Origin: Caulochytrium protostelioides
Taxonomy: Eukaryota; Chytridiomycota; Caulochytriomycetes; Caulochytriales; Caulochytriaceae
NCBI GenBank assembly: GCA_003615045.1
Contig: ML014259.1
Span: forward strand, 1-45,925
Reading direction: 5' to 3'
DNA length: 45,925 nt
Positions 4,661-45,857 of this stretch are shown here, piece after piece. Below the pieces are notes generated by a model. It worked only from the letters and a program-made list of their open reading frames with translations. It was not told the DNA's origin and made no database searches. The translations under genes were made by a program, and so were the position numbers. Every line of letters starts with the position of its first letter. The first letter of the stretch is position 1.

Positions 4661-4717
4661 GGTGGCGGCAAGCGCGCGCGTCGGAGCCGGCGTGGCAGCA
4701 AGCGCGCGCGTCAGAGC
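4661..4717. repeat. Two-copy direct repeat, about 27 bp
   Basis: Two near-identical units with the core GCAAGCGCGCGCGTC and spaced by 30 bases lie in the region upstream of NAGS. Function is unknown; it may be simple replication slippage. Confidence 0.6.
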
Positions 4718-8462: not shown

Positions 8463-9794
8463 GACGCCTGCCGAGCTGTCGGCCGCAGCGGCACCAGCGT
8501 CCTCAGCGCATCGGCCAGCTCGCCGGTCAAAGGAATGATCGCCGCCGTGTAGGGGCGCGCCAGACCGCGGAGTGCCGTGCGTCAGCGCAGAGTCGAGGCG
8601 TCGGAAGATGTGATACGCGATGCGCGAAATCAAACAAAGGGAGCCGAGTCACCGTCGAGGCAGAGATGGAAACTAGTGCGTTCGATTGCCGCGGCTTTCA
8701 GTGGGCTAGCGGCGCCTGGCTAGCGTGCTGCTGGCCGATAACCGCCGCTCGGGTCGACGCCGATGGAGAGCCCCGCGGCAGAGGCGCGGTGCGGCGGCCC
8801 GTGGCGGACCGCCAGCGCCTGCCGATCATCGTCATGCGCGTGGCACGAGGCCTCCAAGCATCCCGTCGCGTCGCGTCGCGTCGCGTCGTGTCGCGTCGCG
8901 CCGTCGGTGCGGGTGGTCGGCAGGGGCACGGCGTCCGCGGCGGCGGCAGCGTGGATGGACCCAGGCACCTCAGGCTTGGGTAAATCGGGGTGGGACAGGC
9001 CGGGCGAGTACGGCGAGTCGGGGCGGGGTTGGCGCGGCCACGCTGCTCGTGCCGCCTGCGCCGCATCGGCGAAAGCGAAAGCAGCCCTTTCCTAGGCCCA
9101 CCAGCGCTGGGCGCAAGCTCGGATCCGGTCTGCACCGACGCGTGGGGAGGCCGACGCCTATTCGCGCGCTGCGCAATAGCGATGTGTTCATCGCAGCGAT
9201 GGCAATCCTCCTGTCGCCGCCACCGCGCCTGCTCTCGACGAAGCTCAAGCTCCAACTCAGGCTCAGACGCACGCTGGCTTCTCGAGCACCCGACTGGTGA
9301 GGACAGCAACCCCAACTCCGTGGTCCGTGATCCCGCCTTTCTGCGCTATCTCCGCTCCCGATACGCTCTCGTGTGTGTCATTCCACCGTTCCCTCACGGC
9401 ATTTCATACGCGTCCATCCTTCGTCTTTTCGGCTAGAGCTCAGCCCCGTCTCGGTCGCCACTGCCGCCTCGTCGCTGCTATCGTCGTCGTCGCTGCTGCC
9501 GCCGTCGTCGTCGCCGCCCTCCGACCGGATCGCTCTCGCGTGCCTCGCGGCGGCGATCGCTCCGTACAACGGCTCGCGCGCCGTTCTCGTGCCATATCCG
9601 CGCATCCACGCTCGCAAGCCGTCAGCAACGGCGTCGCGACGACGCCTGAGTCTCGGTTGGCGCGACTCCGGCGCTCGGTCGCCACGTGCCCGCGTGCCTC
9701 GGCGCGTGGCTGGCTGATACCCGCATCGTTGGTACCCGCAACGCCAGCGGCTTCTCGCGCGACCAGTTTTCTTGGAATTGTCGCGGCGGCCACG
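8463..9794. promoter_or_regulatory. Divergent intergenic region between ING and SAS-6 genes
   Basis: The two flanking genes start outward from here, so both promoters must lie within these 1.3 kb. No TATA box is obvious. The sequence remains open in several frames, but the products are Arg/Ser-rich and featureless. Confidence 0.45.
8864..8900. repeat. GTCGC pentanucleotide tandem repeat
   Basis: About seven head-to-tail copies of GTCGC with one variant unit (GTCGT), in the ING/SAS-6 intergenic region. Confidence 0.75.
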
Positions 9795-12035
9795 ATGGAG
9801 ATCCTTTACCGGGAGCAAGTCCCCTTTATCATCAAGCAGCGCGACGAGCCGCCCGCCGCAGCCCCCGGCGCAGGTCCGGCGGCGCGGCGCACTCACCGCG
9901 ACCGTAGCCCGTCGCCCGCCGACGAATCGCCGGCGCGTGCCGCGCACGACGGGCCCGACAACGCCGCCGCCGCCGCCGCCGGCCGGCGGCCACGGAGCGC
10001 GTCGCCCTCGAAAAGCCGGTCTCGTCGCCATGGCGGCCGTGGCGGCGGTGGCGGTCATGGCGGCTTGCATGGCGCGGCGCCGCCCGCCGCGTCCTCCGCG
10101 TCCGCATCGGCCGGCGCGCAAGGCCTGCACGGGACCGCGGCGAGCGGCGAGGTGCGGGAACGGCACCACCCGAGCCTGACGCTGCAGATTGCGCGCGTCA
10201 CGGTGCAGCACCCGTACCACGGGACGGCGCTCGCCTTCCAGATCACGGACGAGGCGGACCCCTTCTTTCTGTACAGTCTGACGGTGTCCGAGGAGGCGTT
10301 CCACGTGCTGAAGCACGAGCAGGCGCTGCTGGTGGACTTCCCCGCGTTCCCCGGGAAGGTGATCGAGCTGCTCAATCTGTGTCGGCAGGCCGGCACGAGC
10401 ACGCACCCGAGCTTTGTGGCGCAGCTGGTTGTGCCCGGAGACGATCCGCGGCTGGCCACATTTCAGCTCGTGGAGACGAATTCGTTCAAGAACATTACAC
10501 ATCTGCGGATGAACGTCGTGCCCGGCACCGACGCCATGCTGAACGACTACCTGGCGGGCGTGGTCCAGCAGCTGAAGGCCGAGCGCGTGCAGCTCACGGA
10601 GCGGCTGCACGCGTCCGAATCGCAGCGCACGGCCTCGTCGAGCGAGACGCAGGCGCGCATCGCCGCGCTGGAGCGCGAGGTCCAGACGGCCCGCGAGGCC
10701 GCGGCCGAAGCGCAGAGCAAGCAGCAGCTCACGCACAGCGAGACGCTCGCGCGGATCCGCGAAGACCATCTGACGGAGCGCGCGACGCTGCGGGACGCGC
10801 ATGCGGCGGAGCTGAAGGCGCTGCGCGAGCGCCTCGAGGCGGAGATTCAGACGCTGACGTCGCAGAACGCGGCGCTCCACGCCACGCAGGCGCACCTGCG
10901 CCAGCACACCGCGAGCCTCGAGAAGCACCTCGCCGGCGCGAACCGGCAGATCGAGCACCACATCAAGGACGTGACCACGAGCCAGCAGGCCGCGGCGCGG
11001 GCCGCGGAGCAGCTGGCGGACACAGCGTCGCGGCTCGACGCGGCCCAGGCCACGGTCGCCGAGCGCGACGCGGCGCTGGCCCAGGCACGGGACGTCGAGC
11101 AGACGCTGCGCGGCTCCGTCGAGCGGCTCGAGGAGCGCATCGCGGCGCTGACCGACCAGCGCGCGACGCTCGGGGAGACGTGTGACGTGCTGCGGGCGCA
11201 GGCCCACCAGACAGAATCCGCGCTGCGCGCCGCCGAAGACGATGTCGCGAAGGGCAACGCGATCATCCGCAAGCTCCAGGCCGAGCTGAAGAGCGCGCGC
11301 GCCGCCACGAAGCTCAAGGCCGCGCTCGTCACGCAGCACGAAGCGCTGCTCGAGGAGCGCCGCCAGGCCCTCGCGCAGGCCCACCAGGACCTCACCGAGC
11401 TCAAGGCGCAGCTGGCCGCCGCCCAGCACAAGGAGCAGACCGCCACCACCGAGCGCGAGGCGCTCCAGTCGCAGCTCGCCGACGCGCGCAAGTCCATCGA
11501 AGACAACACCCACGTGATCGAGTGGCTCCACAAGCAACTGAATGAAGACGCGCTGCGCGGGCCGACCACCTACCGGCGGAGCGCCACGGCCTTGGCGGGC
11601 GCCGGCGGGAGCCCCAGCGCGACGACGCGTGGCGCCGGCAGCGGCGCCACCGATGCCGCCGCCGCCGCCGCCGCCGCCACGGCGTATCCCTCGCGACCGG
11701 GCTTCATCTCGTCGGCGGCGCGGGAGGGCGGCCTGCCGTCCGCGCGCGATACGGCGCCATCGCCTCACCAGTTCCTCTACACGAGCCACGGCGCCGGCGG
11801 CGGTCTGAGCCGCGACGCCGGCGGCGCTTCGCGCTCGCGCTTCCTCGCGCCGAACAGCGGCGGCATGCCGTCGTACCAGCCGACATCGACGACGCTGCCG
11901 GAGGACGGCGGGCTCGCCGGGAGCCGGGCGCCGGCCTCCAAGACCTCCGGCGCGCATCCCCACATCATGGGCGGTCTGGCCGGCGTGCGGCCTGCGGCCG
12001 CCGTCGCCGCCAGCAAAAGCAGCTACTTTTCCTAA
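9795..12035 (+). CDS. SAS6: SAS-6, centriole cartwheel protein
   Basis: SAS-6 self-assembles into the nine-fold cartwheel that starts centriole and basal-body formation, so its presence implies a flagellated stage. The 746-residue product begins MEILYREQVPFIIK, matching the first strand of the SAS-6 head. Residues about 127-250 carry the rest of the head: DPFFLYSLTVSEEAF, ALLVDFPAFPGKVIELL and LVETNSFKNITHLRMN. Phe231 in that last motif sits where the head-to-head dimer Phe of the family lies. A coiled coil of about 330 residues follows, with late family motifs GNAIIRKLQAELK and VIEWLHKQLNED, then a disordered Ala/Gly/Ser tail. About 108 residues of Ser/Arg- and Gly/His-rich sequence (19-126) interrupt the head after strand one. 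The frame is open upstream to 9297, but the ATG at 9795 is the one that fits the family. Confidence 0.93.
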   Translation: MEILYREQVPFIIKQRDEPPAAAPGAGPAARRTHRDRSPSPADESPARAAHDGPDNAAAAAAGRRPRSASPSKSRSRRHGGRGGGGGHGGLHGAAPPAASSASASAGAQGLHGTAASGEVRERHHPSLTLQIARVTVQHPYHGTALAFQITDEADPFFLYSLTVSEEAFHVLKHEQALLVDFPAFPGKVIELLNLCRQAGTSTHPSFVAQLVVPGDDPRLATFQLVETNSFKNITHLRMNVVPGTDAMLNDYLAGVVQQLKAERVQLTERLHASESQRTASSSETQARIAALEREVQTAREAAAEAQSKQQLTHSETLARIREDHLTERATLRDAHAAELKALRERLEAEIQTLTSQNAALHATQAHLRQHTASLEKHLAGANRQIEHHIKDVTTSQQAAARAAEQLADTASRLDAAQATVAERDAALAQARDVEQTLRGSVERLEERIAALTDQRATLGETCDVLRAQAHQTESALRAAEDDVAKGNAIIRKLQAELKSARAATKLKAALVTQHEALLEERRQALAQAHQDLTELKAQLAAAQHKEQTATTEREALQSQLADARKSIEDNTHVIEWLHKQLNEDALRGPTTYRRSATALAGAGGSPSATTRGAGSGATDAAAAAAAATAYPSRPGFISSAAREGGLPSARDTAPSPHQFLYTSHGAGGGLSRDAGGASRSRFLAPNSGGMPSYQPTSTTLPEDGGLAGSRAPASKTSGAHPHIMGGLAGVRPAAAVAASKSSYFS

Positions 12036-26729: not shown

Positions 26730-29700
26730 ATGCTGCCCCCAAGAGCGCCGAGCCACGACCTGCTGAGCCCGGGCAGCAAAGGCGGCCCTGTCAGTAGTAA
26801 CAGCGCCGGCGTGAATCGGGACACGGCACCACGTGGTTACCCGAGTCACGGCAGCGCAGGCCCAGATGACCGTGCCGACGGCAGCACTACCGCGGCCGCG
26901 ACGGCGACGCCCTCGCCCTCGCCCTCACCGTTGCCGTCGACGCTCTCGTCGCGCCGTCCCTCGCTTCACGCGCAGGCCGCCGAGGGATCGGCGGCCACGG
27001 CCGCGGCAGGGAACCCGGGCCCGCCGCCTGAACTGAAGGTAACGCATCGAATGGAATGTCGCACGGCTTGCGTCATGGGCTTTGACTCACCGCAGACCTG
27101 CTTGATCTGCATGGCACTTGCTCTGTCTAGCCCATTCTGAAACTGACGCCATGGCCGATGCCGAGTGCGGCGACGCCGACCACGATGACGCTTGCGACAG
27201 CGGCGGCGCCTACCCCCCTGTTGCCACGGGTCCAGTCCGCCGTACTGCTGGGCGGCGCGGCCGCCCACACTCCGTCGCATGCGGCTCTGCGGCCAACGCC
27301 CTCGGCAGCCACCCTCGCCGCCGTCCATGCCTTCCGGCGTTCGCACTCGACTAGTTCCGGCATCGGTGGCGTGCTCGCTTCTGCGGCGCTCTCCCCGACG
27401 CGCCCCGCCGTCGACGCCGTCGCGGCCGCCGCCGCCGCCATGACGGCCACCGGCATGCTGCCGCGGATGTCGTCCGCCGCGCTGTCGGCGACGGCGACGC
27501 TGCACGCCGCCGAAGGCGCCGGAGACGACGCCGCGGACGGCGCCGCCAGCGGGATGGCGACGGTGGGCATGTCGCCTCCTCGAACGCATCCGGCATGGAT
27601 CGAAGGCGAGTGGAACGCCTGGGCGATGCCGGTGGCGAAGCAGCGGCGGTGGCACGCGGCGCCGCTGGCACTGGACCCCAGCACGGTCGTGCCGGTTGTC
27701 GACGACGTGACCATCACGATGCAGCGCATTGCGCGGGCCGCTAGCTGGTCGCAGGAGACGCAGATGTGGCGCGAGAAGCAGCGGGAGGAAGGCATCTACG
27801 TGGCACGCGCCGCCGTGGCGCCGCCGCCAACGCGATGGCTCGGACAGGTGGCCCGTGGCCGCATTGTGCCTCTCTCGGACGCCATCCATGACGGCGGCCA
27901 CGCATTGCCCGACCGGACGGGCGGGAAGGGCGATCACGTCAGCATTCCGATGCCGACGGGTCATGATTTCGGCGACGGCACGCCCGGCCCGCCAGCCACC
28001 GTGGATGTACCGCCGATGCAGAACCCTTATGTGGACGAGCTGGGCGCCGAGACACGCATTCAGTATGCGCGGCAGTGGTCGTCGACCACGTGGGAGCAGC
28101 TGGCGCAGTCGATGCAGCCGCCGGCTCTCCTCGTGGTGCGCATGGGCCCGTTTCATCTGACCATGCCCAGCCGGTTGGTCCACCCGCAGCTGCGCCTCGC
28201 CGAGCGCCTTGTGGCGTTCAGTGAGCTGCTTGCGCAGCGGATGGAAGCCCGCGAATTCGACTATCTGTGGTCCAAGATTGCGATTTGCCGTGAACGGTAT
28301 ACAGCGATCCGGGTGGACATCAAGACCGCGCAACAGGCCTTTCTCGCGCTGGGGAAACCCAAGTCGCGGCGGGACCGGCAGGCCCTGCATGCGCTGAAAG
28401 CTCAACTCCGCGAGCTGCACCACTACTGGGCTACCTGTCTGGATGAAGCGCTGGAACTGCGGCAGCTGGTTCGCGAGAACCGCTTTTTTGATCATCGCGT
28501 TTCGGAGCAGATCCAGGAATGCTGGCAGTCCCTATTGCGTCAGCAGCTGCAGGACGGCTATGTTGCCACCCCGCTCGACGTGACTTTTGCCCGGAAAAGG
28601 ATTCTGCCGGGTCGTGACTTGGAAGAGCAGCAGCGCCACGAGCTCTATGAGCGCGAGCAGCGCGCCATTCTCCGGAATGCGGAGCGCAAGCGCCAGTGGA
28701 AAAACGATCAGAAGGCGTGGCAGGCGCGCAAAGCCCTCAAGGAGCTCCAGGACGACGCTCGCGACGATGTCCGCGGGCACCAGTTTGCCTCGCTCGCGCG
28801 GCCGCATCATCCCACGCCCTATACGATTGCCGATACGCCGCTTCCGCCGCCGTCTGCCCCGTCGGCACCGTCGCTGTGGACGCGGGCGCGCGGACGCTCC
28901 GCCACCGTGAGCGTCGCTACCGGGCCAAGCGCTCGCGCGGCCGCCGCGCCGCCGTCGCAGGGCTCCCGGACCCGTTCCCGGTCCGGCCGGCCGCAGGCCC
29001 AGGCCAACATGCTGAACCTCGACGGTGGGCACGACAAGCAACGCCGCCGCCGCACCCACAGTCTGCCGGCCTACCGGCCGACCGTCATCGCCAACGACGA
29101 CTTCATGAAGCTACTCCAGGACCTCGGCGTCGCGTCAGCCCCGCCGCCGCCCGCAGCACTCGCGCCGCTCCCGGCTGTTGCGGGTGCGGTCACGCCGGCG
29201 CCCCTGTCCCGGACGGCCTCGCGTGCTGGTACGGCGCCCGTCGACAGTTCAGCCATTATCGACGATCCTCCCTCGGCGTCGGTGTCGGCGTCGTCGGCAC
29301 CCGCGCCCGCGACCCCCACGATGCCGCGGCACCGCGTGCGCTCGAGCGCGACGCGGTCGCTGCTCGTGCGGACGCAGCTCGTGACGCGGCCGTCCGAGAC
29401 GGCGCTTGCCCAGGAGCCCGTAGCGTGGCCGGCGTTCCGGGACGACGCGTTCGACCGCGACTTGCATCGCCGGACGATCGCGGAGCAGGACGCGATGACG
29501 TGGCATCCCGAGATCCTGCTGCCGCGGCTCGCGTGGACGAAGCCGCTGACGCCGGCGCGGGCGTGTCCGCGCGCGGAGCAGCAACGTCGCGCGGACGCCC
29601 TCGCGTCCGTCTTCTCGGCCGCGCTGTGGATCGACGACGCGCTCGTGACGACCACGCCGTGGCGGCCAATCGATCCCGTGACGGGACTCATCAACTGGGG

Positions 29701-32700
29701 CGCAGCGGGCGCGACGTCACATCCGTCGGATCCGTCGGACCCCTCGGGCGATGCCATTCCACCCACGCCGGCGGAGCCGCCGGCGGTGCACGGTGCGCGC
29801 TCGCAGGCGGGGGATTTTCTCGTGGGCCACTGGCTGCTTGGCATGCCGCAGCAGATCCGCGTCGAGGTGCGCGAGCGGCGGCTCCGCGGCATGAAAACCC
29901 GGATCCGGGTGATCGGCGCCACGGACGTCGCAGTCCCGCCGCAGGGCCATACGATGCATGCGGACAAGCTCAAAATCCCCTTCACCCGCGTCGACGACCA
30001 TCGTCGGCCTGCCTCGGCGTCCACCTCGTCCATGTCGCTCGTGCCGGCGGCCACACTATCGTCGGCAGGGTCCCCATCGGAGGCAATGTCGCTGCCGACG
30101 ACAGCAACAACGATGAAGGCCGCCGTTGGATCGGCGGCAACGGCCGGTGCCGCCGCAGACCACGAGCCAGCCATGCACACGGCGGATGCGGGGTACGTCT
30201 ACATGGGCGTCGGCTGGGCGACGGTCTCGGATCCGACACGCGATGGGTGGGACAGCGGCCTCGCGGGCGCCTCGGAGGGCTCTGTTGGCATGATCCCACG
30301 GTACGTCGTTTCGCAGCACCGCCGCATGACGATCCTCCAGCTCTGCGACTGGGTCACCCAGATGCTCTGCACGGCGGCTGTGCTCTCGGAGCAGCGCTTT
30401 CTACCGTTTCTGCGGCTGGCCGAGGCCGCCCGCGCATACCGCGAGCAGGAGAGCCGCCACCTGCGCGCACACCGCGTGTTCCGGCTCGAGCTGCCGGACT
30501 GGTACAGCGACACGACGCTGGCGGTCGGATCGGGCCACTCGCCGACACGTGCGCGGCTGCAGCAGCTTGCGATGCGTGCGCAGGGTCAGCGCGTCTTCAA
30601 GGGCCCGTGCCCCTTCGAGCCGCCCGCATCGAACGCTGCGCCACTCTCGCGCAGTGCTTTCGCCGATGCCGTTGCGGCCTTCGCGTCGCCGTCTGTGCCG
30701 TCCATACCGTCCATCGCGGCCGGGCCCAGCCAGCACATGCTTCTCCGTGCCGCGTCGCTGTCGTCGTCGTCTCACCTGCGAAGCACGGGGGGCCTCGAGA
30801 CAACGGCATCCTCGCCCGGCTCGCTTGGCTCGACGAGTCGTCTCGACGCGCACGTGACGCGGCGAATGCCGCTCGAAGTCGATATGGACGTCGTCCAGCA
30901 GGTCCGCAACCACCTGCTGATCCAGACGGCGCTGCGCCGCGCGCACAGGACCGTGCACGACTACGTTGTCGAGGACACGCCGCCGGCGTTTAGCTTCCGC
31001 TGGGCACGACTCTGGCGCGCATGGTTCGCGGCACCTGTCTACCGGCCCCTGCAGCCGTCGCGGATGGCGCTAACGGCGCCCACGTCGACGAGCCGCAGCG
31101 CGGCCGGCGCCGCAGGCAGCCTGCTCCTTGCTGACGGCGACGTGCCCCACATCAACATCCAAGTGCTGCGCGGCTTCAATCTGCCGGTGCGTGCCGGTGA
31201 GCCGCAAGCCACGCGACTGATGATGGTCGGCGCCTTCTACGACTCGCGGACGCCCACGGTCGTAGCCGACGGCGCGTTCCCGATCTGGCGTGACACCATC
31301 CGGCTCCCGTTTCCGCCGGCACTCGCACAGCTCGCGGTCCAAGGCGCCGGCGACGACGTCGCTCGCACCGCGGCCGTGAAGGACGCCATCTACCTGCATC
31401 TCTACGACGAGCGCCTCGTCGCCTTGCCGAGTACGACGGCCCACTGGGGAACCGGCCACGTAGTCGATGGCCCCGGTCGCAACGCCGCTGCCGCTGCCGC
31501 CGGTGACGACGACAACGAAGACGACGATCGCATATTCCCGGCGATGCGCGGCGAGCGCGTCTGGCTCGGCACCGTCACGATCCCGTTCACGGCGCTGTAT
31601 GAGCAAGGCCGCATCAGCGGAATCTTTGAGGTTCAGACGGCTCCGATCCTGCCGGGGTATACGCGCGCGACGACACCGCTCTCGGACGTGGACCGCCAGC
31701 TGTTTGCGCACCGTCGCGAAACGAAAGCGCCGTTTGTGTCGCTCTTTATCACGCTGGACCCGATCCTGCCGCGGCCGCGGGCGTTGCCGCTGGTCATTGA
31801 GTCCCACGAGACGCCGTCAACGCTGAAGCGGGTCGAAACATACATGCAGCTCGTGCAGCGCGTAACCGAGCAGGCCTACGGCACACCCGCCCAGCGTCCG
31901 GCCGTCGTAGGACAGCCGCACGACCCACGATCGCCGCTGGTGACGCTGCTCGCTGGGCGCTCGGTCCTGGTCATGCGCTTTGTCGCCCCGACTCCGCCGC
32001 CCGAGAGCATCGTTTCGGTCGCCGACGTGCTGCGCTTCGTCGCTGCAATCCCGACCATCAACGCGATGGCCACCTACATGACGACGACGACGCTTGTCTC
32101 CAACCTCGATCAAGTCCTCGACATCGGCGCCGCGAGCCCGCTCGAGCATGCGATCACTCTGTGCAACTACATGCTGGGCCTGGGACTGCCCGCGTACGTC
32201 GTTCTCGGCCGCAGCGTGCTGGAAGGGCAGTCCGCCTATGTCGCCGTGCCGCAGCCGGTGGTGGACGGCGCCGAGAGCGCCGACGGCGCCGACCGCCCGA
32301 GCGGGACCGGGCCTGCGGCGGCGGCGGGACCTGCTGCGGACCGCACCGACGGCGTCCCTCTTCGAAGCGCCGCGGGTGGAAGGCGAAAGCCCGATCCCCG
32401 GCGCCCCGCGGCCGCGCAGCAACTGTTTCTCTACGCGGCGACGACCGGCCGCCGGTATGCCCTGGACGACCCGCACTGTCCCCTGCGCTGCGTCTATGCG
32501 GTGTTCGACCAGAGCAACTACTGGACGCATCTCCATCCGCTGCGCGCCATCGATCTGGTCACGTGGCAGCTGGACGATTCGATGCAGTGGCGCGCTTTCT
32601 GGTCGCACGGCGCCGCCCTGCTCGACCCAGCGCCGCCCCATGACGACCTGTACCTGGCACCCGCGAGCCCCAGCACGCCCGCGACGGCGACCACCGGCGC

Positions 32701-33286
32701 CGGCGTGGGTGGTCGCGGAGCCAACGCCAGTGGCGGCGATGCGCCGCCGTTGACGGTCTGGAGCGTCCAACGGCCGGCGCCATTCCTCACCGAACCTTCG
32801 CCCAGCTTTCTCGTGAAGCTGGAGAGCGCTATCGAACAGCGTCTGGTCACGGGGCTTGAGACGTGGCGCGGACAGCATCCGACCACGTGGCATCGCGGCA
32901 TGGGGCGCACTCTCAAGAGCCTGCTCATCCAGTATGAAGCCGCGTGGTCCCGTCGGCTAGACGCAACGGCGGCGGATAGGACGATGTACGGCCCCGCGGA
33001 GGACCAATGGGCGGATGACCCTGATGATCTGGACGTGTCGGCGCGATATGGGCCGTCTGCGGCGCAGCTGGCCGCCCACCCGATGTTACGTCATGTCACG
33101 AGCGTGGCGCAGCGCCACCCGTGGACGGGCATAGCGCCGCTCCGCGATGCCCTGATGAGCACGGAGGTCCCGATCCATTTCGGCAGCAATATCGAGTATG
33201 CACTCGCCGTCTACTGCGCGGGCCACCCGGGTGGGTTTGTGACGTGCTGGATCTACGTCGCCGTCTTTGCCCGCCGCTTGACGTAG
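26730..33286 (+). CDS. CC2D2A: CC2D2A, ciliary transition-zone protein
   Basis: CC2D2A belongs to the MKS module at the ciliary transition zone, which gates entry to the cilium; human mutations cause Joubert and Meckel syndromes. Proposed exons 26730-27038 and 27131-33286 give 2154 residues. The first 250 residues are low complexity. A helical region (LVHPQLRLAERLVAFSELLA and on) covers about 450-640. A C2 domain lies at about 1443-1623 (HINIQVLRGFNLPVRAGE, PIWRDTIRLPFP, VWLGTVTIPFTALYEQG). The transglutaminase-like C-terminus runs from about 1700: LEHAITLCNYMLGLGLPAYV, CPLRCVYAVFDQSNYWTHL and the terminal NIEYALAVYCAGHPGGFVT, matching the human C-terminus. That fold is thought to be inactive in CC2D2A. 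The 3' exon alone is certain; the first exon is inferred. Confidence 0.9.
27039..27130 (+). other. Inferred intron near the 5' end of CC2D2A
   Basis: Donor CTGAAG|GTAACG and acceptor TTGCTCTGTCTAG|CCC bound 92 bases, phase 0 on both sides. The acceptor's TAG is itself the in-frame stop that ends the downstream reading frame on its 5' side, so the two open frames join neatly here. A branch-like CTCAC or TTGAC lies near 27082-27090. Without this intron, translation would start at the ATG at 27158. Confidence 0.55.
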
Positions 33287-34369
33287 CAAAATAGGTGGTC
33301 CTGGCGCCGTCGTCGGTACGTTGACCCCTCCATTCATACGACTCATTCCCGCGCAACCGCATCCTTCGGGGACCGCATCGATGCGATGCAAGACGAGTCA
33401 ACCGAGGAATATCGCGTTCACGGCCATAGCATCCATCATAGAGACCGGTAATGTGGGGTCCTGGATGACTCGAGACAGACGGGTGGTGCTGGAAAAGGGG
33501 GAAATGTGACATCCTCCTTTCTCTCTCCCTCTCTTTCTGGGGAGTGACGGGTGCAGTTCATACTCAGAGGACTTGCTCTTATACCGTTGCAGGCGAATCG
33601 CCCCGTCTGTCCTCATTCCTGATGCGGTGCATCGACAGTCAAGAACGCCGTCCACGCTGTCAGCCTTCCTCATCGGCCGATGGCGACGGCGCTCTCGCCG
33701 TCATGTAGTTCCCACGAACATAAACGCATAGATACACCCACATCAAAATGTTCCCACTCACTGGTCATCGCGACCGCTCCCGCCGTCATGTCGTGGAACG
33801 ACGTGGGAAGGACAATAGGGTCGGGTTGAAAACCGCCACGACGGTGGGCATTGCATCGCATCGCATGACATCGCCCAACCTCCCGGAGGCGCTAGGGGAT
33901 GCCCATGGATGCTCGGTCGGGCCCTGCCGTCCTTCGTCATGGAGGGGAGCTGTGCCGGCCGCATGCGTGGGAAACGCGTTTCGTGCGCTCTCGCTCCGAA
34001 CCATGGGCGCCCACCATCGCATGGCAGTAGATCTCCCGTTGCATGCACCCGATGCCACTGCTGACGCCGCGGACCGCAAAGGCAGCAGCCGTGTCAAACA
34101 CGACGCCTCATGCTGAGGGTGGGCTGTCAAGGTTGCCGCGAACCTGCAAGACCAATGCCGAGCGCAGGGTCGTCCGCTGTCATCATTTCTCGCCGCGCAC
34201 ACGCACGCGCCGTGGGAAAGCCGTAGGTGAAGACGGTGCGAAGACAGGACGTCTGTCGGCGGCTCGTTTTTTTTTTTCTTTCGGCCCAGCAGGAAGGGCA
34301 GAACCATCGTATCAATTCGACCGTTAATCTACTCTATCGGAGCCCGATTGTGGGCGAGTACGACGGTTT
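33287..34369. other. Intergenic region between CC2D2A and the hydrophobin promoter
   Basis: About 1.1 kb with visibly lower GC content than the genes to the left. No protein or RNA gene recognised. A 10-base T run lies near 34267-34276. Confidence 0.45.
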
Positions 34370-34430
34370 CCACGGTGCCACGCCCTTTGAAAAGGGTACG
34401 ACATCCACGGTGGAAAAGGCTATATAAGGA
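34370..34430 (+). promoter_or_regulatory. Hydrophobin promoter: TATA box with upstream palindrome
   Basis: A strong TATA box (TATATAAGG, 34421-34429) lies about 185 bases before the hydrophobin ATG. Just upstream is a perfect inverted repeat CCCTTT-GA-AAAGGG (34383-34396), flanked by two direct copies of CCACGGTG (34370-34377 and 34405-34412). The leader after the TATA box is pyrimidine-rich, as is usual in strongly expressed fungal genes. No other gene in the window has so clear a core promoter. Roles of the repeats are inference. Confidence 0.65.
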
Positions 34431-34611
34431 GCGGGCGAGCATGGATCATTCTTGCATTTTCTTGTCAAAGCATTATCGTTGATACGACAACCAGAAACTC
34501 AGAACAGCTATCTCATCCACCATCCTCTCCAGCCTTTCCTTCAGCTCTCTCTCCACTTTGAAATCCTTTGGTCTCCCACATTTTTCAACCCTTGATCCTC
34601 GCTTTTTCACC

Positions 34612-35007
34612 ATGCTTGTCAAGACCCTCTTCCTTGTCGCTGCCGGCGCGGCGACCGCTATGGCGCAGGCGCCCAACGAGTGGAAGAACCAGCACGGCAA
34701 CCACCACGACACCGTCGTGCACACGAAGGAGAGCATGGAGTGTGGCTCGCACCAGAAGTCCTACTGCTGCACGCAGACCGTCGCACCGGACGCGCCCGGT
34801 GTCGGCATCCTTGGCTCGATCCTGGACAACCTGTTCATTGGCCTCGAGTGTGTGCCCATCAACCTCAACATTCTTGCGGTGGACAGCACGAGCCAGTGCC
34901 AGAGCAACGTCGTTTGCTGCTCGGGCTCCGAGCTCGATGGCGGCAAGATGGTGATGGGCTGCGATGCCCCGCGCAAGGGGGTCCCCTCCAAGAAGACGAA
35001 GCTCTGA
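34612..35007 (+). CDS. Class-I-type hydrophobin, secreted
   Basis: Hydrophobins are small secreted amphipathic proteins that coat aerial hyphae and spores and make them water-repellent. The 131-residue product begins with a signal peptide (MLVKTLFLVAAGAATAMA, cleavage likely after Ala18). The mature part has exactly eight cysteines in the diagnostic order C, CC, C, C, CC, C: Cys44, 52, 53, 80, 96, 102, 103 and 117. The spacings X7, X26, X15, X5 and X13 fit class I. GLECVPINLNIL after the long loop also recalls basidiomycete class I proteins. The tail after Cys117 is basic (PRKGVPSKKTKL), longer than usual. ATG 34612 (CACCATGC) was chosen over upstream in-frame codons because the signal peptide starts there. 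No intron is seen. Third positions are mostly C, like strongly expressed genes. Confidence 0.88.
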   Translation: MLVKTLFLVAAGAATAMAQAPNEWKNQHGNHHDTVVHTKESMECGSHQKSYCCTQTVAPDAPGVGILGSILDNLFIGLECVPINLNILAVDSTSQCQSNVVCCSGSELDGGKMVMGCDAPRKGVPSKKTKL

Positions 35008-35579: not shown

Positions 35580-35636
<57 letters not shown>

Positions 35637-35711
35637 CTCTCTATCTCTCTCTCTTTCTCTCTCTCTCTCGCCTGCCTTTACCCATGATCACCGTTATCTT
35701 TGGTTTTCACG
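35008..35711. other. Intergenic region between hydrophobin and helicase genes
   Basis: This holds the hydrophobin 3' flank (T-rich near 35050-35090) and the helicase promoter with its CT tract. No further gene is recognised. Confidence 0.5.
35586..35669. repeat. CT microsatellite just upstream of the helicase gene
   Basis: About 84 bases of almost pure TC repeats, uninterrupted for about 44 bases and then broken by TTTC and TATC variants. It ends about 42 bases before the helicase ATG. Such pyrimidine tracts often precede transcription starts in fungal genes, so it may be part of the promoter or leader. Confidence 0.95.
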
Positions 35712-38700
35712 ATGGCCGTTACTGAGTTAGTCAACTCGGGGAATTACTCCAACGGAAGGTACCTCTACCGATTCACCGACTCGGGGAGCTCGGATGAAGA
35801 CTCCGCATGGAGCGTCGCCGAAGATCCTCAGCTGTGCGAAACACAGTCCTTGTGCGATGCTACCGATCGCCTCGAACTAGGCCCACATAAGGTCGAAGAC
35901 GACGATGCGGCGCCACTGCTCGACCCGCGCTTCTACAACGAATGCGAGGAGCAGTATCTTCTAGATAACTACGAGGTAGTCCAACAGGCCTGTCGGGACC
36001 AGATCGCCACGTTCATCACCCAGGAAGGTTCGGAGGCGCTGCAGAGAATGCTATCCGACAGGTGGGATTTCCTTCCGAATCCGGATCCGCTGATGGCCAT
36101 CCTTCGGTTCTACGTGCTATCACTGCGCGTCTGCTCCCGCGGGTCTGCAGATTCGCTCCACATGAAGCAACTGCTCAGCCTCCTACGAGTCAGCGATGGC
36201 ATTGGCCTAGCCCTGGATGTCCTGGACACGATGCGGAAGGAAAATTCGCCGCCCGACGTGAAAATCGCCGATATGACCGCCATGACGGTGCAAATCCTGG
36301 CCCGAATGATCAAGGACGATGTAGAGTTCCACTGCGAGGTCCACAACATGCAGCAGTTCGCAGCGCTGAAAAACCACGTGATGCACAAAAATATGCCGTA
36401 TTGCTCGTCGACCATTCGCGCGCAGAGCGCATGGCGGTCCCTGACGGCCTTGCTGCGCTATCGTGCACAGCAGGGCCAGCCCGAGGACATCCCGACTCCC
36501 ACCGGGACCACCGCTTCAGGGATGCTCACCCCGCGGCTCTCCAAGCCCGTAAGCTATGACTTCTACATGGAGCTGCCGGGCCATTTGTCGCTGCTGGGGC
36601 CACGCCACAGCAATGACCACGCAGATATCCGCGACATTGCCGTGGCGCCCACGCTCGATGAGATTATGTGTCCGCGTCCCGCATACCTGCCGCAGCTCGA
36701 CCACCTCGCCTGGTACGTGGAAGGGATGGAAGGTATGTACGATCGTCAGTTCCGACTTATGCGCGAGAATGTCTTTGCACCGGTCAAGAACATCCTGCTC
36801 CATGTTTTACTGGGTGGGCCCAAGCACCCGAAGCCGATAGCGCCGTTCATTCGCTTTTCGCCGTGTCGCATGACGTTCATTGGCATGAACTTTGGGGACG
36901 TGGTCGTGAATATGAGCTTCCCGAAGCTCATGGGCCCGAATGGCCGACCCGCGCTGGGCTCACTGTGGGTGGTGCTTGTCCCCTTACCTCCCCTTCCGAC
37001 GCGCAAGTCGCAAAGGAACCACGTGGCGAGCGACAAGGACAAGGTCGTGGAAATCTTTTTCTTTCAACTGACGCGATGCCCAGCGCCCGAAAATCGCCCG
37101 TCCGTGATATTGTTCGGGGATCCCTCTGCGAATCACGAGGATACGGTTGAAACGGCTCGGCTGAAGTTGTTGAACAGCAACGATACCGCGTTGTCTAAGC
37201 TGCTGTACCATTACGAGATAACCATGCAGTACGTCGACCTGCGTGTGGTCCAGTGCTCGGACGTTCTTCCGGCCACGTTCACCAGCATGCTCGATTTTCT
37301 GAAAAACGGCGACCGGCAGATCTCGCATCGTGCCGTGCTGGAGCCGCAGCTGATGTTCCGCGGCATCCCCATCCAGCCACCCCGATATGTTCGCCGGCCG
37401 CCGTTCGAAGCGTTCCATCTGGCGTCCACCACCACCGATGGGCGCGACATCAGGTTCCATCCGGACAAGCCGTTCGACATGGATCTGTATCTGAAGCACT
37501 CAAAGTTGGATGCTTCGCAGGCAAAGGCCCTCCTGAACGGGCTGTCGCGCTCGATTGCGCTTCTCCAGGGGCCTCCGGGCACAGGGAAAAGTTTTACCAG
37601 CGTCGCCCTCATAAACACCCTGATCGATTCAGGGCTCGCCAACGACGCTCCCATCCTCTGTGTCGCCTTCACAAACCATGCCGTGGATCAGATCCTGAAC
37701 CGCCTGATCGCCCAAGGCGTCGCTCCGAGCAAGATTCTCCGTCTCGGGCCCAACTCGCTCCTGACCACCGTGGCCAAAGAATCGTCGCTGACGCCGAATA
37801 AACCCTTTGGCAACGATTCTTTCAGGCATCTCAGAGATATCCGGAAAGAACTCACGCAACACTTGCAGACCTACGCGTCGCAAGCCCGGATCGTCGCCGA
37901 AGGCATCACGCTGGCCTTGAACCCCCTGCTGGAGGAAGCCTGGGACTACGCCGCGCAGCAAAAGGCGCAATGCCAGGATCCTACCAAAGCGTTTTATCGG
38001 TTTCTCACTGGAAGGGTACCCCGCAGAACTCCGGAACACCACTCGGGCGTGACTTTCACGGAGGAGAACCGCCAACAGATTGGTCGGCAATGGTTTGACA
38101 TTGCGGTGCAGGCCCGCTCAGAAAAATCCGGCGAGATCCTGCAGCGGTACAGCGCCGAAAGCGGCCGAATGGGCAAAGATGCAAAATCGGTGACGGCTTC
38201 AGATATCCGGCAGTCGTTCCGCGTCATGGGCGTGACCACATCGTCACTGGCCAATCGCCTTGACCTTATCCGAGCCGTCCGTCCCAAAATTCTCATCTGC
38301 GAGGAAGCGGCCGAAACTCTTGAAGCGCATTCGCTGATCAGTCTTCTGCCCAGCGTGGAGCATGTGCTGATGAACGGTGATCACAAGCAGCTGCGACCGG
38401 TCGTCTCCTCGTACGAGTTGACCGCGGCGAGTCAGGAAGGCCGTGCCATTAGTTACGATATCTCGTTGTTCGAGCGCATGGTGGCGCCCCCGCCGGACTT
38501 AGCCGCTACCAACGTATTGCCGTACGACACCCTCGAAATTCAGCGACGCATGACCCCTGACGTCTCCAAGCTGATTCGGAAAAGCGTGTACCCTTTTCTT
38601 CAGGACGGTGAGTCAGTGCATGACTATCCCCTGGTACCTGGCATGCTGAACCGCGTGTTCTGGCAGCATCACTACTTCGGCGAAGAATCTGACGAGGAAT

Positions 38701-41402
38701 CGTTCTTCAACCCGTTTGAAGTCGACATGGTGACGGCGTTGGTGAAGTATCTAACGGAGTGCGGAACCAAGGCCCAAAATATCGCCGTGATCACGCCGTA
38801 CAAGTACCAGATGCAGCGCCTGAAGCAGGCGATCTATTCAGCCCTCCAAGTCAGGCCTTATGACCCTCTAGCCGAAGTTCCGACGATCGTGACCGTGGAT
38901 GAGTTCCAAGGCTGTGAAGCCGATGTAGTCGTCGTCTCGATGGTGCGCAGTAACGAGAAACATGAGTGCGGTTTCTTGAAGATCCAGAACCGCGTGAACG
39001 TGATGCTGTCGCGTGCCAAGCACGCAATGTACATTGTTGGCAACGCCGACACCGCGTCGAGAGGGCCCATGCTGGGTGAAGTCGTGGAACAGCTTCGAAG
39101 CGCCCGACTCGTGGGTCCGGCGTTCATGACCGCGTGTCACCGCCACCCGGGCGAAGCCGTCCCGGCCGCCATGCCTGGCGATCTCAGCGAACAGGCGGTG
39201 TGCCGCTCGCTCTGCAACGTGACGATGGCATGCGGGCACCCGTGCGTCAAGTCGTGTCACGGCGACGCCCACCAATGCCGCGCGATTTGCAAGAAGCCTT
39301 TGCCCCAGTGTGGCCATCCGTGCACGCAACAGTGCGGTGTTGCGTGTACGGCCATCTGCCTCGTCGTCGTCGAGACCGCGTCGTCCGACGTGACGCTGAC
39401 GTGCGGTCATCCCGCGCCCGCTAACGCCACGTGCCACGACTTCAGCCACGGGCTGGTGCGTTGCACGCAGATGCGTGACTCCGTTACCCAGCTGCCTTGT
39501 GGCCACGAAGCGCGTCTCAGCTGTGACCAAACGGTCGAGAATTACAGGTGCAAGGAAAAGGTGTCGTTCTTACTGCCGTGTGGGCACGAGAGGTCGGGCG
39601 TTTGTTCGTCGCCCCCGTCCGAGAACGTTAGCTGCAAGGAGCCCGTCACGCTAGGGCGCCCGGACTGTGGGCACCTCGTGTCGTTACCGTGCTGTGAAAC
39701 TGACCGCCCAGCGTCCCCTTGCATGGAAGCGGTCGATGTACTGCTGAAGGGATGCGGGCACCTGGTTCGCGCCGCCTGTCATCAGGCCAAAGACACCAGC
39801 TTGCAGCTTCGCTGCAAGGCTAAGACCACGACAGTTCTTGCCTGTGGGCATGAAGCGGTCATCTCGTGCAGAGCGGTGACGAGGAATAAACCAATCAATT
39901 GCAAGCAGCAGTGTCCATTGCCTTGCGGCCATACGGCCAAATGCTATGAGGCCGTCGACGCCAACAACTATCGCTGCCTCGTCGTCATCGGGACCCGGCC
40001 TTGCGGTCATGAGCAGCTCTGCGGCATGGGAAGTCACTGCGAAGTCACGGTTCCCATCCGGAAGGTAGACGGTGTCGCGCTCCGCCTCCCGACAACAGCG
40101 CCGTGCCACATGGCAAAGACCGTCGGCCGGCAGCTGGCGTTAGAGGAAGCAGCCGCAGTGTCGGCAGTGCTGGATAGCCCATCCCGCGCCGCCCCATGCA
40201 AGCATGGGTTCGACGCGGCGGCTTGCGAGAAGTCGATCGATCTCTATCTGCCATGCGGCCATCGCGCCACGGTCGCATGCCGCCAGACGAGTGATTTGAC
40301 CCAGGTCCCGTGTCCTATCATTTGCACCATAACGTATGAGAACTGCCTGCACGAAAAGAAACTGGCCTGTTCTGAGCTCGAGAAACATCAAACGTGCGAT
40401 GTGTTGATCCCGGTGCTCTGTGTGCGCGGACACCCTCGCGAGTTGACCTGCGGTGAACAAACCACAGCCGACCCAACGCATAAGGAAGCGGAGTGTGAGC
40501 ACCAGGTGGCTCGATCGCTGTCGTGCGGCCATACCGTCGGCGTGCCCTGCTTCCAGGCAGAGACGCCAGTTGAGCCGCGGTGCACGGCTAAGATCATCCA
40601 CGTACTGCCATGTGGCCACAAGACCGATATCGAATGCGCAATGGATGCGCAACAGCGCGACGCAGTTCCTTGCCATCACAAGCTCGAGGTGACGGGGCCG
40701 TGTGGACACTCCCTGGGCACGACCTGCATCAAGTCGCGCAACGAAGATCTGCCCGCGTGCACTGCGCCGGTGGAACGCATTTGCAACGACTGCTCCCATC
40801 GCAGCTTTGTGGCCTGCGCTCGCGCCTCAACCTGGTCGTGTCAAAACAAGGTGATGGCCCCACGACCGGACTGCAAGCACCTGGCCGCGCGAGTGTGTTC
40901 GCAAAAGAAGGCCGCCAAACTCCTCCCTTGTGAAGAGCCAGTAGCCTGCCGCAGAAACAACTGCGGCCATCTCGTCGTCAGGCCGTGCTATCAGAAAGCG
41001 GAGACCCAGGCTCCCTGCGAAGAAGTGGTCAAACACATCTTTGGCTGTGGGCACGGGAAGTCGGTGAAGTGCTCCGAGCAGTCGCATACCATGAAATGTC
41101 CGAAGACCACGGAGACCAAGCTCGCGTGCGGTCATACCATCAAGCACGCATGCAGCGTCACACCTTCTTCGAAGCTGTGCATGAGGCTGATTTCGGCCGT
41201 TAATCCCGACTGCGGTCATCCCTACACCATCCGCTGCAATGAGCATCAGGGACTGAGACCACTGCTATGTGACGAAGATGTCGAGCTTGATGTCGCTGGG
41301 CATTCTCACATCCTCCCCTGTCATCTCGCGCGTATCGTGGGAACGAACCAACTGATTCCCAAGAACAGCTATAACGTACTGGCCAAAATTTTGCACCTGT
41401 GA
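35712..41402 (+). CDS. NFX1-type zinc-finger SF1 helicase (ZNFX1/Hrr1-like)
   Basis: The 1896-residue product is a superfamily 1, UPF1-like RNA helicase. Motif I is GPPGTGKS at 620-627 (Lys626), motif II EEAAE at 864-868 (the variant seen in ZNFX1), then NGDHKQLRP, ITPYKYQMQRLKQAI, TVDEFQGCEADVVVVSMVRS and RVNVMLSRAKHAMYIVGNA. From about residue 1141 to 1860 there is a very Cys-rich array with about eighteen CGH tripeptides, each followed by a Cys five to seven residues on, plus variants such as CLH, CSH and CKH; this is the NFX1-type zinc-finger style. S. pombe Hrr1, a relative, works with the RNA-dependent RNA polymerase in RNAi heterochromatin; animal ZNFX1 acts in small-RNA inheritance and antiviral defence. 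A role in RNA silencing here is inference. Base composition is less GC-rich than most of the window. No intron is needed. Confidence 0.88.
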   Translation: MAVTELVNSGNYSNGRYLYRFTDSGSSDEDSAWSVAEDPQLCETQSLCDATDRLELGPHKVEDDDAAPLLDPRFYNECEEQYLLDNYEVVQQACRDQIATFITQEGSEALQRMLSDRWDFLPNPDPLMAILRFYVLSLRVCSRGSADSLHMKQLLSLLRVSDGIGLALDVLDTMRKENSPPDVKIADMTAMTVQILARMIKDDVEFHCEVHNMQQFAALKNHVMHKNMPYCSSTIRAQSAWRSLTALLRYRAQQGQPEDIPTPTGTTASGMLTPRLSKPVSYDFYMELPGHLSLLGPRHSNDHADIRDIAVAPTLDEIMCPRPAYLPQLDHLAWYVEGMEGMYDRQFRLMRENVFAPVKNILLHVLLGGPKHPKPIAPFIRFSPCRMTFIGMNFGDVVVNMSFPKLMGPNGRPALGSLWVVLVPLPPLPTRKSQRNHVASDKDKVVEIFFFQLTRCPAPENRPSVILFGDPSANHEDTVETARLKLLNSNDTALSKLLYHYEITMQYVDLRVVQCSDVLPATFTSMLDFLKNGDRQISHRAVLEPQLMFRGIPIQPPRYVRRPPFEAFHLASTTTDGRDIRFHPDKPFDMDLYLKHSKLDASQAKALLNGLSRSIALLQGPPGTGKSFTSVALINTLIDSGLANDAPILCVAFTNHAVDQILNRLIAQGVAPSKILRLGPNSLLTTVAKESSLTPNKPFGNDSFRHLRDIRKELTQHLQTYASQARIVAEGITLALNPLLEEAWDYAAQQKAQCQDPTKAFYRFLTGRVPRRTPEHHSGVTFTEENRQQIGRQWFDIAVQARSEKSGEILQRYSAESGRMGKDAKSVTASDIRQSFRVMGVTTSSLANRLDLIRAVRPKILICEEAAETLEAHSLISLLPSVEHVLMNGDHKQLRPVVSSYELTAASQEGRAISYDISLFERMVAPPPDLAATNVLPYDTLEIQRRMTPDVSKLIRKSVYPFLQDGESVHDYPLVPGMLNRVFWQHHYFGEESDEESFFNPFEVDMVTALVKYLTECGTKAQNIAVITPYKYQMQRLKQAIYSALQVRPYDPLAEVPTIVTVDEFQGCEADVVVVSMVRSNEKHECGFLKIQNRVNVMLSRAKHAMYIVGNADTASRGPMLGEVVEQLRSARLVGPAFMTACHRHPGEAVPAAMPGDLSEQAVCRSLCNVTMACGHPCVKSCHGDAHQCRAICKKPLPQCGHPCTQQCGVACTAICLVVVETASSDVTLTCGHPAPANATCHDFSHGLVRCTQMRDSVTQLPCGHEARLSCDQTVENYRCKEKVSFLLPCGHERSGVCSSPPSENVSCKEPVTLGRPDCGHLVSLPCCETDRPASPCMEAVDVLLKGCGHLVRAACHQAKDTSLQLRCKAKTTTVLACGHEAVISCRAVTRNKPINCKQQCPLPCGHTAKCYEAVDANNYRCLVVIGTRPCGHEQLCGMGSHCEVTVPIRKVDGVALRLPTTAPCHMAKTVGRQLALEEAAAVSAVLDSPSRAAPCKHGFDAAACEKSIDLYLPCGHRATVACRQTSDLTQVPCPIICTITYENCLHEKKLACSELEKHQTCDVLIPVLCVRGHPRELTCGEQTTADPTHKEAECEHQVARSLSCGHTVGVPCFQAETPVEPRCTAKIIHVLPCGHKTDIECAMDAQQRDAVPCHHKLEVTGPCGHSLGTTCIKSRNEDLPACTAPVERICNDCSHRSFVACARASTWSCQNKVMAPRPDCKHLAARVCSQKKAAKLLPCEEPVACRRNNCGHLVVRPCYQKAETQAPCEEVVKHIFGCGHGKSVKCSEQSHTMKCPKTTETKLACGHTIKHACSVTPSSKLCMRLISAVNPDCGHPYTIRCNEHQGLRPLLCDEDVELDVAGHSHILPCHLARIVGTNQLIPKNSYNVLAKILHL

Positions 41403-41480
41403 GCTGCTAGAAGCAAGTTGCATCACGCACCGTCTCTGACGGTGTAACTGAAGACGTATGAGCCGTAGTGAATCAAGTAC

Positions 41481-42001
41481 TTGAATTCACGCTGGGTGCG
41501 CCAGTGCCTGGAGCTGTACGGAGGCAAGCAGCGCCCATTTGCCAAGTTCTTGCACTGTGTCGTCGACGGGGCGGCCACGCAGAGTAAGCCCGTGGTGGTC
41601 GATTATGGCGACTCCAAGTTTGCCTCCGGGAGCCAGGGCGAGCTCTCTGTTCCTACTTCTCAGGCGCACAAGGCGTGCGCTCGGTGCTTCCGCACCTTGC
41701 TGGTCGACAAGTTCCGGACGACCCTGGTGCATGCCGAGACGGATCCTGACAGTGGTGCACATCCGGAACACGACGATGGTGCCGATATCTCGCGCGTCCA
41801 AGGCGGGCGCCCACCTGACCGAGCCGACGTCGGTCAACGGGTCCGCCCAACCCAAGTCCATGCCGAGACGATCCTGACCCTGAGCAAAGTGCAAATTCGG
41901 CTTAAGGATGCCGTGGTCAAAGGCCTTCTGTGAGTGATCCCCGCCATGGCAAGTTTGTGAACCGCGACCTGAACGCCTCCACTCTACATCTATCAAAATA
42001 A
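41481..42001 (+). pseudogene. Fanzor (TnpB-like nuclease) relic, C-terminal part, copy 1
   Basis: Fanzors are eukaryotic relatives of TnpB, RNA-guided nucleases spread with mobile elements. The first frame (to 41933) has no ATG and reads CLELYGGKQRPFAKFLHCVV, VVVDYGDSKFASGSQGELSV and LLVDKFRTT, the RuvC region of Fanzor up to its VDEFRTT motif. The catalytic Glu is Lys here (codon 41709-41711). In another frame, KFVNRDLNAS at 41951-41980 is the last RuvC motif (RDxNA) with its Asp intact, followed by a TAA at 41999. The zinc-ribbon Cys pairs are not readable and the frames are broken, and the N-terminal two thirds are missing: the helicase gene ends only 78 bases upstream. It is therefore a dead fragment. 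The family call is from motif memory and needs a profile search. Confidence 0.7.
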
Positions 42002-43016
42002 TATGTGTTTCGTTTGCTCTCGCCTCTGAATGCTCTCGCTCTCTGCATCCTCTCGGTCCTCTCGGTCTGTTGCACGATAAGCTCTCCACGTACCCTTCCG
42101 ACCGGGTCGTGGGTGAAAAGATAATCGACAACATAAAACTCGCCAATGGTACGAAAAATCGCTTTTAAAACGTGATCAGCTACGTCAGAGTCCATGCGAC
42201 TTGGAAAAAAATACAGAATAAGCATGATACACGGCATGTCGTTGCTGCCCCTTTCTACATCTCGATGCTGAAGCCATCATAAAAGAGGTGCCCGATTTGG
42301 AATTCCATCTTGGCGGCAGTGTCCAAGTGCTGCTCTAGCCGATCTACGTACACCCTGATACGGGACTCCTATTCTTTGCGGTCACCGACGATCAAAGAAC
42401 CACGCTAGGGCAACCGCGTGAGACGGTTCAGCGCGCTGGGGTGAGCTTGTCGATGAAGCGCCTCGGGTTCGGGGGGTCGGGACTCCACGGCGGCGGCGGC
42501 GGCGGCCCCACTGAGGCGCATGCGCCCCGCCGGCGCCCGCCGCGTTTCAGAGCCGCCGCGGCGGCGCTCAAACCGCCATGCACGTGGCTCGCGGATGCCG
42601 CAACAATCGCCGGGGGTGACCCGCCAAGGAGCGGGATTGCAGCGTGTGGGATGCGACGTCGAATGGCCACCAAGAATAGCTCCGACGTCCACAGCACGCT
42701 GGCACCATTCTCTGGACGCCGGGCCCCCCTCTGCACCCGCTGCCGACCTTGTAGAAGAACGATACCACCGACTGGACCGCGGCAGCGCTGCTCTCGCTGA
42801 CGGCGCTCCCCCTGCCTGCGCATCCGCTGTGAGCTCCCGCGCCGCACGCGGCCTACTCCGCATCGAGGACCCATCGCGTCGCCGCTCCGCCGGCAGGCAC
42901 TTTCCCCGCCGTGATTCTAAATCTTGCTACATCGCAATCGCCACCGCCCGGGTTGAGATCAACGCGCCGGTCATTCGCGTGCCGTGCGGCCGCCGTGGAT
43001 ATCGACCAGCGCCGCA
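42002..43016. other. Intergenic region after Fanzor relic 1
   Basis: The first 300 bases are AT-richer; the rest is GC-rich and includes a short GGC run near 42490-42508. Open frames on both strands between 42400 and 43026 are Arg/Pro-rich, overlap each other and show no domain. It probably holds the promoter of the next gene and perhaps more decayed mobile DNA. Confidence 0.4.
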
Positions 43017-45339: not shown

Positions 45340-45857
45340 TATTTATTTTAATATGTATGAGACAAATCGACGCGATCACCGTACCCTTCAACGCAACATT
45401 GAAATCGCGACTCGCAAGCTTGCCGAATCACACGACAGCAAACCCTGACCACGGTCCCCTTGTGTCGGCTTTGTCCATGCTTCAGGACTACATTCGTCTT
45501 GGAATACACCCGGTTCAGGCGGACCTGTAGACCGACGTCGGCTCGGTCAGGTGGGCGCCCACCTTGGACGCACGAGATGTCGGCACCATCGTCGTGTTCC
45601 GGATGTGCACCACTGTCAGGATCCGTCTCGGCATGCACCTCGGTCGTCCGGAACTCGTCAACCAGGATGGTGCGAGAACGCTGGTCACACGCCTTGTACG
45701 CCCGAGCCTTTTGAAAGGTGATCTCGCCGTTGGCCTCCGGGGGAAAACTTGGATGCGTCATAAGCGACATAGGCCAAGTGACCCTATAGTTTCTGTTTGA
45801 CAGATCCATACGGCCCAGCGCTTGGCACTTAGAAACGCGGTAGGTTTGAACGAGCAC
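45340..45857 (-). pseudogene. Fanzor (TnpB-like nuclease) relic, C-terminal part, copy 2
   Basis: On the minus strand this is a second, inverted copy of the relic at 41481-42001. The open frame reads RAYKACDQRSRTILVDEFRT with the catalytic Glu kept (codon 45654-45656). The preceding KFSPGGQ motif is present but in a different frame (AYDASKFSPGGQ), and the last RuvC motif appears as SRDFNVAL at 45392-45409, again in another frame. At least two frameshifts thus separate the motifs, and no zinc-ribbon Cys pairs are readable. About 105 bases (around 45530-45640) match copy 1 almost exactly, whereas the flanks are clearly more diverged. Upstream sequence runs to the window edge without further recognised motifs. 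Confidence 0.65.

Follow-up and report, generated by a model that had tools for sequence, protein, structure and literature searches.

Before the report of Ahrendt et al. in 2018 (PMC6784888), no hydrophobins had been recorded outside of the Dikarya. The paper described 14 such proteins in the proteome of Caulochytrium protostelioides, placed them closer to group 1, tied them to the aerial sporangia of the organism, and presented them, along with one Mortierella protein, as the first hydrophobins from beyond that group. With regard to classification, class I hydrophobins are defined in part by the formation of SDS-insoluble, amyloid-like rodlets, and class IB is the basidiomycete subdivision represented by SC16 (PMC5385502). 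PMC6784888 was the sole paper found in the open-access literature that names both Caulochytrium and hydrophobin, and among the literature matches listed no later study of chytrid hydrophobins was apparent by title or opening abstract. Caulochytrium is not mentioned in the main text of PMC6733946 or PMC12375992, nor are hydrophobins in the main text of PMC6690862 or in the portion of PMC9010356 that was searched. The central claim of the earlier note on the DNA described here, namely that a flagellated fungus encodes a hydrophobin, was already published in 2018, a fact missed by that first reading. Added here are a count of 19 genes, their subfamilies, their TATA promoters, their AT-richer surroundings, and tests for a chimeric assembly.

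The window, which is the whole stretch of DNA that was analysed, comprises 45,925 nucleotides and corresponds to contig C149, in our own labelling, in an assembly that totals 20,945,662 bases over 337 contigs. Where family members share one contig, a letter following its number distinguishes them. In protein database searches, all of the named homologues of the window hydrophobin belong to Caulochytrium protostelioides, a member of the Chytridiomycota, class Caulochytriomycetes, in the NCBI taxonomy. This species, a chytrid mycoparasite, fits the surmise in the earlier note of a zoosporic fungus, perhaps one with aerial sporangia or a mycoparasitic habit. The features of the window are as follows.

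9180..12035, + strand: frame for the centriole protein SAS-6 (SAS-6_N, E = 1e-27)
27131..33286, + strand: frame of 2051 residues for a cilium protein of the CC2D2A/CEP76 type (CEP76 peptidase-like domain above the cut-off, CC2D2A C2 domain below it)
34421..34427, + strand: TATA box, TATATAA, 191 bases upstream of the hydrophobin start codon
34612..35007, + strand: hydrophobin gene, a single open frame of 131 residues plus stop (translation; PF01185 match above the cut-off; dN/dS of 0.20 against the C24a paralogue)
34612..34668, + strand: putative signal peptide, residues 1-19 (by eye and a simple hydrophobic score)
34741..34962, + strand: eight-cysteine hydrophobin domain (PF01185 match in the whole-genome search; cysteine spacing)
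35688..41402, + strand: neighbouring gene of 1904 residues with AAA_11/AAA_12 helicase domains (domain matches)
41480..41930, + strand: copy of a dispersed genome repeat (40 scored matches)
45446..45768, - strand: second, inverted copy of the same repeat (repeat search)

The PF01185 profile aligns with residues 44-117 of the window protein with an E-value of 3e-7, scoring 31.4 bits where the cut-off is 23, a search suggested in the earlier note and one that bears out its assignment. The protein begins with a hydrophobic, signal-like stretch, MLVKTLFLVAAGAATAMAQ, as judged by eye and a simple score. Its eight cysteines are separated by gaps of 7, 26, 15, 5, and 13, and the hydrophobin pattern with class I spacings that had been read from the DNA is indeed present; these gaps lie in the range of class I rather than class II hydrophobins. 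The class II model, PF06766, matched none of the 19 Caulochytrium hydrophobins at an E-value of 0.01 and gave zero matches across the 20.9-Mb genome in a search run without a positive control. On the basis of its profile match and spacing, the assignment of the window protein as a class I-type hydrophobin is supported. Two AlphaFold models, with pLDDT values of 43.5 and 38.9, were too poor for use on the disulphide-bonded β-barrel fold. The gene is genuine, native to Caulochytrium protostelioides, and under purifying selection. A long CT-rich run lies at ∼35585-35670, between the hydrophobin and helicase genes.

A search of the genome with PF01185 revealed 19 loci, all above the cut-off and none with an internal stop, and the cysteine order C-CC-C-C-CC-C is found in each of them. 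The gap between the third and fourth cysteines is 26 in 18 of the 19 members (60 in C25), and that between the fourth and fifth is 15 in nearly all. An alignment and trees suggest about three subfamilies, with the following probable membership.

Window-type group: C149, C24a, C15, C71a, C60b
Second-type group: C1, C40a-c, C48, C60a, C117, C216
Third-type group: C24b, C71b, C232, C177a-b, with C25 as its outlier

Paralogues of the window protein on C24, C15, and C71 are 78%, 69%, and 59% identical to it, respectively, and the dN/dS values for seven chosen pairs range from 0.15 to 0.61. Related CXG81DRAFT and CAUPRSCDRAFT records carry the name Hydrophobin in UniRef. Of two proteins with CAUPRSCDRAFT names, one shows 99% identity with the C15 copy and the other 97% with the C232 copy; these tags presumably denote a separate, single-cell assembly of the same species. 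The proteins described by Ahrendt et al. likewise come from this species, contain eight cysteines, and belong to group 1, but they numbered 14 in a single-cell proteome as compared to the 19 loci in the present assembly (PMC6784888).

Core genes adjoin members of the family, including those for phosphoglucose isomerase, ECM29, SNF2, a replication protein A subunit, and a WLM protein. The regions around the hydrophobins of other contigs list 28 frames of at least 250 residues that are not hydrophobins; 19 of these were scanned against Pfam, and 16 of the 19 showed matches at E ≤ 0.001, one of them having sub-cut-off matches only. Two members differ from the ordinary short hydrophobins in that the domain follows ∼300 Pro/Thr/Ala-rich residues (L009, positions 3130-4332, and L013, positions 3936-5204; 400 and 422 residues). 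In addition, the hydrophobin domains on C48, C15, and C216 (L018, L022, and L016) lie no more than ∼1.1 kb from the end of their contig, in one case less than 200 bases, suggesting that the assembly breaks near hydrophobin genes.

The upstream regions of the family share a promoter element. A TATA[AT]A[AGT] box is located 150-350 bases upstream of 15 of the 18 testable hydrophobin genes as opposed to 3 of 40 other frames (Fisher p = 1.8e-8), the latter having been drawn from both the hydrophobin regions and the control regions with the first ATG of each frame taken as its start. The C48 gene was left out of this count, for it has just 48 upstream bases before the contig end; with its inclusion, and with three hydrophobin frames retained among the other frames, the values are 15 of 19 hydrophobins versus 4 of 43 frames. 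No 8-mer is common to the upstream regions of at least nine of the 19 genes, and only one 7-mer, CATCCTC, is shared to that extent. Such a common TATA box would be fitting for genes with strong, regulated expression.

The 19 sequences were combined into a profile and compared with hydrophobins of known structure. The leading matches were 2nbh (3e-9) and 7s7s (4.6e-9), followed by 6e98 (1.5e-5) and 5w0y (0.0025), with weaker matches to 2n4o (0.12), 6gcj (0.22), and 6e9m (2.9). We take 2nbh and 7s7s to be SC16 of the basidiomycete Schizophyllum commune, 6e98 to be WI1, 5w0y to be SLH4, and 6e9m to be another basidiomycete protein, whereas 6gcj and 2n4o are presumably the ascomycete proteins RodA and MPG1, respectively. 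Given the weak match to 6e9m, the lead of the basidiomycete proteins rests on four of the five. A profile of the third subfamily again placed 2nbh (2.8e-9) and 7s7s (3.2e-9) at the top, with 2n4o third, above 6e9m and 6e98. The window protein alone matched 6gcj only, with an E-value of 0.55, and PF22354, the ascomycete-type Eas model, weakly matched two of the 19 members (best E-value 0.001).

SC16 shows the same cysteine order as the Caulochytrium hydrophobins, and the end of its last loop in 2nbh, GLVNVGCT, resembles the GLVNLGCT of two third-subfamily members. The loop lengths differ, however: the third-to-fourth and fourth-to-fifth gaps are 26 and 15 in nearly all of the Caulochytrium proteins but 34 and 12, as counted, in the 2nbh fragment. 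MPG1 and RodA belong to the same eight-cysteine family, and their matches to the 19-member profile are weak. With respect to clustering with class IB, as represented by SC16, SC3, and Vmh2, 2nbh is the best profile match, its loop lengths are different, and 6e9m falls below two ascomycete proteins; the tree is compatible with a placement either inside or outside of that group.

The remaining genes of the window bear on its source. The SAS-6 frame, whose presence on this contig the earlier note had correctly recognized, is the only match to PF16531 in the genome. For the 2051-residue frame, which had been called CC2D2A, the CEP76 peptidase-like domain is well matched (8.9e-21), but the N-terminal C2 domain that gives CC2D2A its name reaches only 22.8 bits (7.8e-5), under the cut-off of 25; from these matches the name is plausible and the cilium-type assignment stands. 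The two cilium genes are consistent with a flagellated chytrid as the source of the DNA.

The GC content falls sharply from 0.695 to 0.590 near 33.3 kb, past the CC2D2A-type gene and just ahead of the hydrophobin, such that the cilium genes lie in a high-GC arm and the hydrophobin in a low-GC arm. Past this step, the two larger genes have a third-position GC of 0.75 as compared to 0.83 in three genes of the high-GC arm, and their GC at the first and second positions is lower as well. The 14 regions outside the window that hold the other 18 hydrophobins have a mean GC content of 0.643, and ten of them fall below the lowest of seven control regions (0.676-0.721, mean 0.695; Mann-Whitney p = 0.0023), the control being small at seven regions of 6 kb. 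In this small sample, the hydrophobin genes tend to be located in AT-richer stretches.

The low-GC arm also contains the two copies of the dispersed repeat, which is ∼350-450 bases in length. The 40 matches scored from 281 candidates consist of the query itself, the second copy in the window, and 38 copies elsewhere in the assembly, with C3, C13, C24, and C25 among the contigs that carry them; GC in the control stretches taken from C3 and C13 is 0.70. The other copies are 71-82% identical, and several share a degenerate coding appearance. The repeat is, to our eye, reminiscent of a TnpB/Fanzor C-terminus, an identity that was rejected: PF07282 had no match in the genome, and four fragments matched no Pfam family above its cut-off. 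The sole match of a fragment to a solved structure was at the level of chance (E = 0.84).

The change in composition at 33.3 kb could in principle reflect an assembly chimera, with the arm carrying the cilium genes and that carrying the hydrophobin coming from different organisms. The difference in third-position GC points in that direction, as do the absence of any bin with GC ≤0.60 among 21 control two-kb bins and the fact that neither the stretch 33300-34610 nor the DUF3818 gene at 42957-44966, which is single and without a paralogue, has a match elsewhere in the genome. DNA of low GC content is, however, by no means peculiar to the window, for among the 53 two-kb bins that cover hydrophobin loci 11 likewise have a GC content of 0.60 or less, and the DNA surrounding a helicase paralogue on C8 (35% identical) has a GC content of 0.58. 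The hydrophobin itself has a third-position GC of 0.89. Because the repeat in the low-GC arm is dispersed throughout the genome and paralogues of the hydrophobin reside on C24, C15, and C71, a chimera is very improbable. The earlier note had placed the gene in sequence continuous with host genes; it overlooked the GC step just before the gene. Contamination called for a separate test, given that the strain had been cultured together with the ascomycete Sordaria (PMC6784888) and that hydrophobins are typical of ascomycetes; the weak match of the window protein to the Aspergillus-type 6gcj might be read in the same manner. On the other side, a search of a database of 5.8 billion proteins, with nine word-sharing candidates, listed only the query and four other Caulochytrium proteins, and family members recur under the single-cell-type names. 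Near identity to one host species, which the earlier note had named as a sign of contamination, did not appear among the proteins listed in this search. For phosphoglucose isomerase, the 20.9-Mb genome gave a single match, on C71, a contig with two hydrophobins. Since the only homologues listed are from Caulochytrium and that enzyme is single-copy on a hydrophobin contig, an origin of the gene in the Sordaria host is scarcely credible. The reading of the gene as native to Caulochytrium is accordingly retained.

How a chytrid came to possess such a family is a different matter. A first tree of the 19 Caulochytrium sequences and six PDB fragments of Dikarya hydrophobins was weak. The RodA fragment was subsequently dropped because it is truncated and on a long branch, and in the resulting tree the 19 sequences are set apart from the five Dikarya sequences with an SH-aLRT value of 6.9 and a UFBoot value of 74. 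None of three constraints that nest one set with the other was rejected by the AU test (p = 0.277, 0.207, and 0.209). The tree with Dikarya sequences that the earlier note had proposed as a check separates Caulochytrium in its best topology and gives no strong placement either way.

Two explanations were weighed against these data. The genes may have come from a Dikarya fungus by transfer, the donor possibly being basidiomycete-like, and have multiplied afterwards, an account to which we assign just short of an even chance. In its favour are 2nbh and 7s7s as the top profile matches, if these are SC16 as assumed, and the restriction of known hydrophobins to the Dikarya prior to the work of Ahrendt et al. 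(PMC6784888). The basidiomycete preference is nonetheless uneven, in that 6e9m ranks behind the two ascomycete proteins, 2n4o and 6gcj, with the full profile and the third-subfamily profile ranks 2n4o over both 6e9m and 6e98; the separation of the two sets in the best tree, little supported as it is, also runs counter to a transfer. Alternatively, hydrophobins could be older than the Dikarya and have been lost in most other early fungi, a proposal that we hold tentatively, at less than even odds. The Caulochytrium loop lengths, which are the family's own and near-constant, the presence of at least two deep groups, and the one group-2 hydrophobin reported for Mortierella elongata (PMC6784888) would agree with such antiquity. 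It demands many losses, however, and hydrophobins of other chytrids were absent from the matches listed in searches that reach relatives sharing short words. Indeed, no homologue from outside of Caulochytrium was found among those matches, including one search in which the best 7999 candidates were scored. A bolder version of the ancient origin holds that a class I lineage from before the Dikarya survived in Caulochytrium and grew there to at least 19 genes, the majority with TATA boxes, as a coat for the aerial stalk, so that one protein family would serve aerial growth in a flagellated fungus, in mushrooms, and in moulds; taken as a whole, we regard this as doubtful.

The preferred reading, at a probability of roughly 85%, is that the window hydrophobin is native to Caulochytrium protostelioides, is of the class I type, and belongs to a family with at least 19 members; the protein is probably secreted and would form a film at the air-water interface on aerial structures. 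Beyond the gene, its domain, its family, its purifying selection, and the shared TATA box, all of which are directly observed, a sequence of events can be envisioned. Following secretion, as predicted from the N-terminal stretch, the protein would be held in its fold by four disulphides, the pairing of which is presumed from the cysteine pattern. By analogy to other hydrophobins, it may then self-assemble into an amphipathic film where air and water meet, probably on the wall of an aerial stalk, sporangium, or spore. Such a film would lower the surface tension, thereby allowing the structure to rise into the air, and the coat would render its surface water-repellent. Caulochytrium forms aerial stalks and sporangia (PMC6784888), and these are the likely site of action.

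The analysis provides independent confirmation that the hydrophobins of a flagellated fungus form a large family of its own, and the chief suspicions of an artefact are weakened. An ancient family would mean that hydrophobins arose before those lineages of fungi in which the flagellum was lost. A transferred one would mean that a surface coat moved between fungal phyla that have an aerial habit in common. With 19 genes catalogued, the choice between ancient origin and transfer is open to a direct test.
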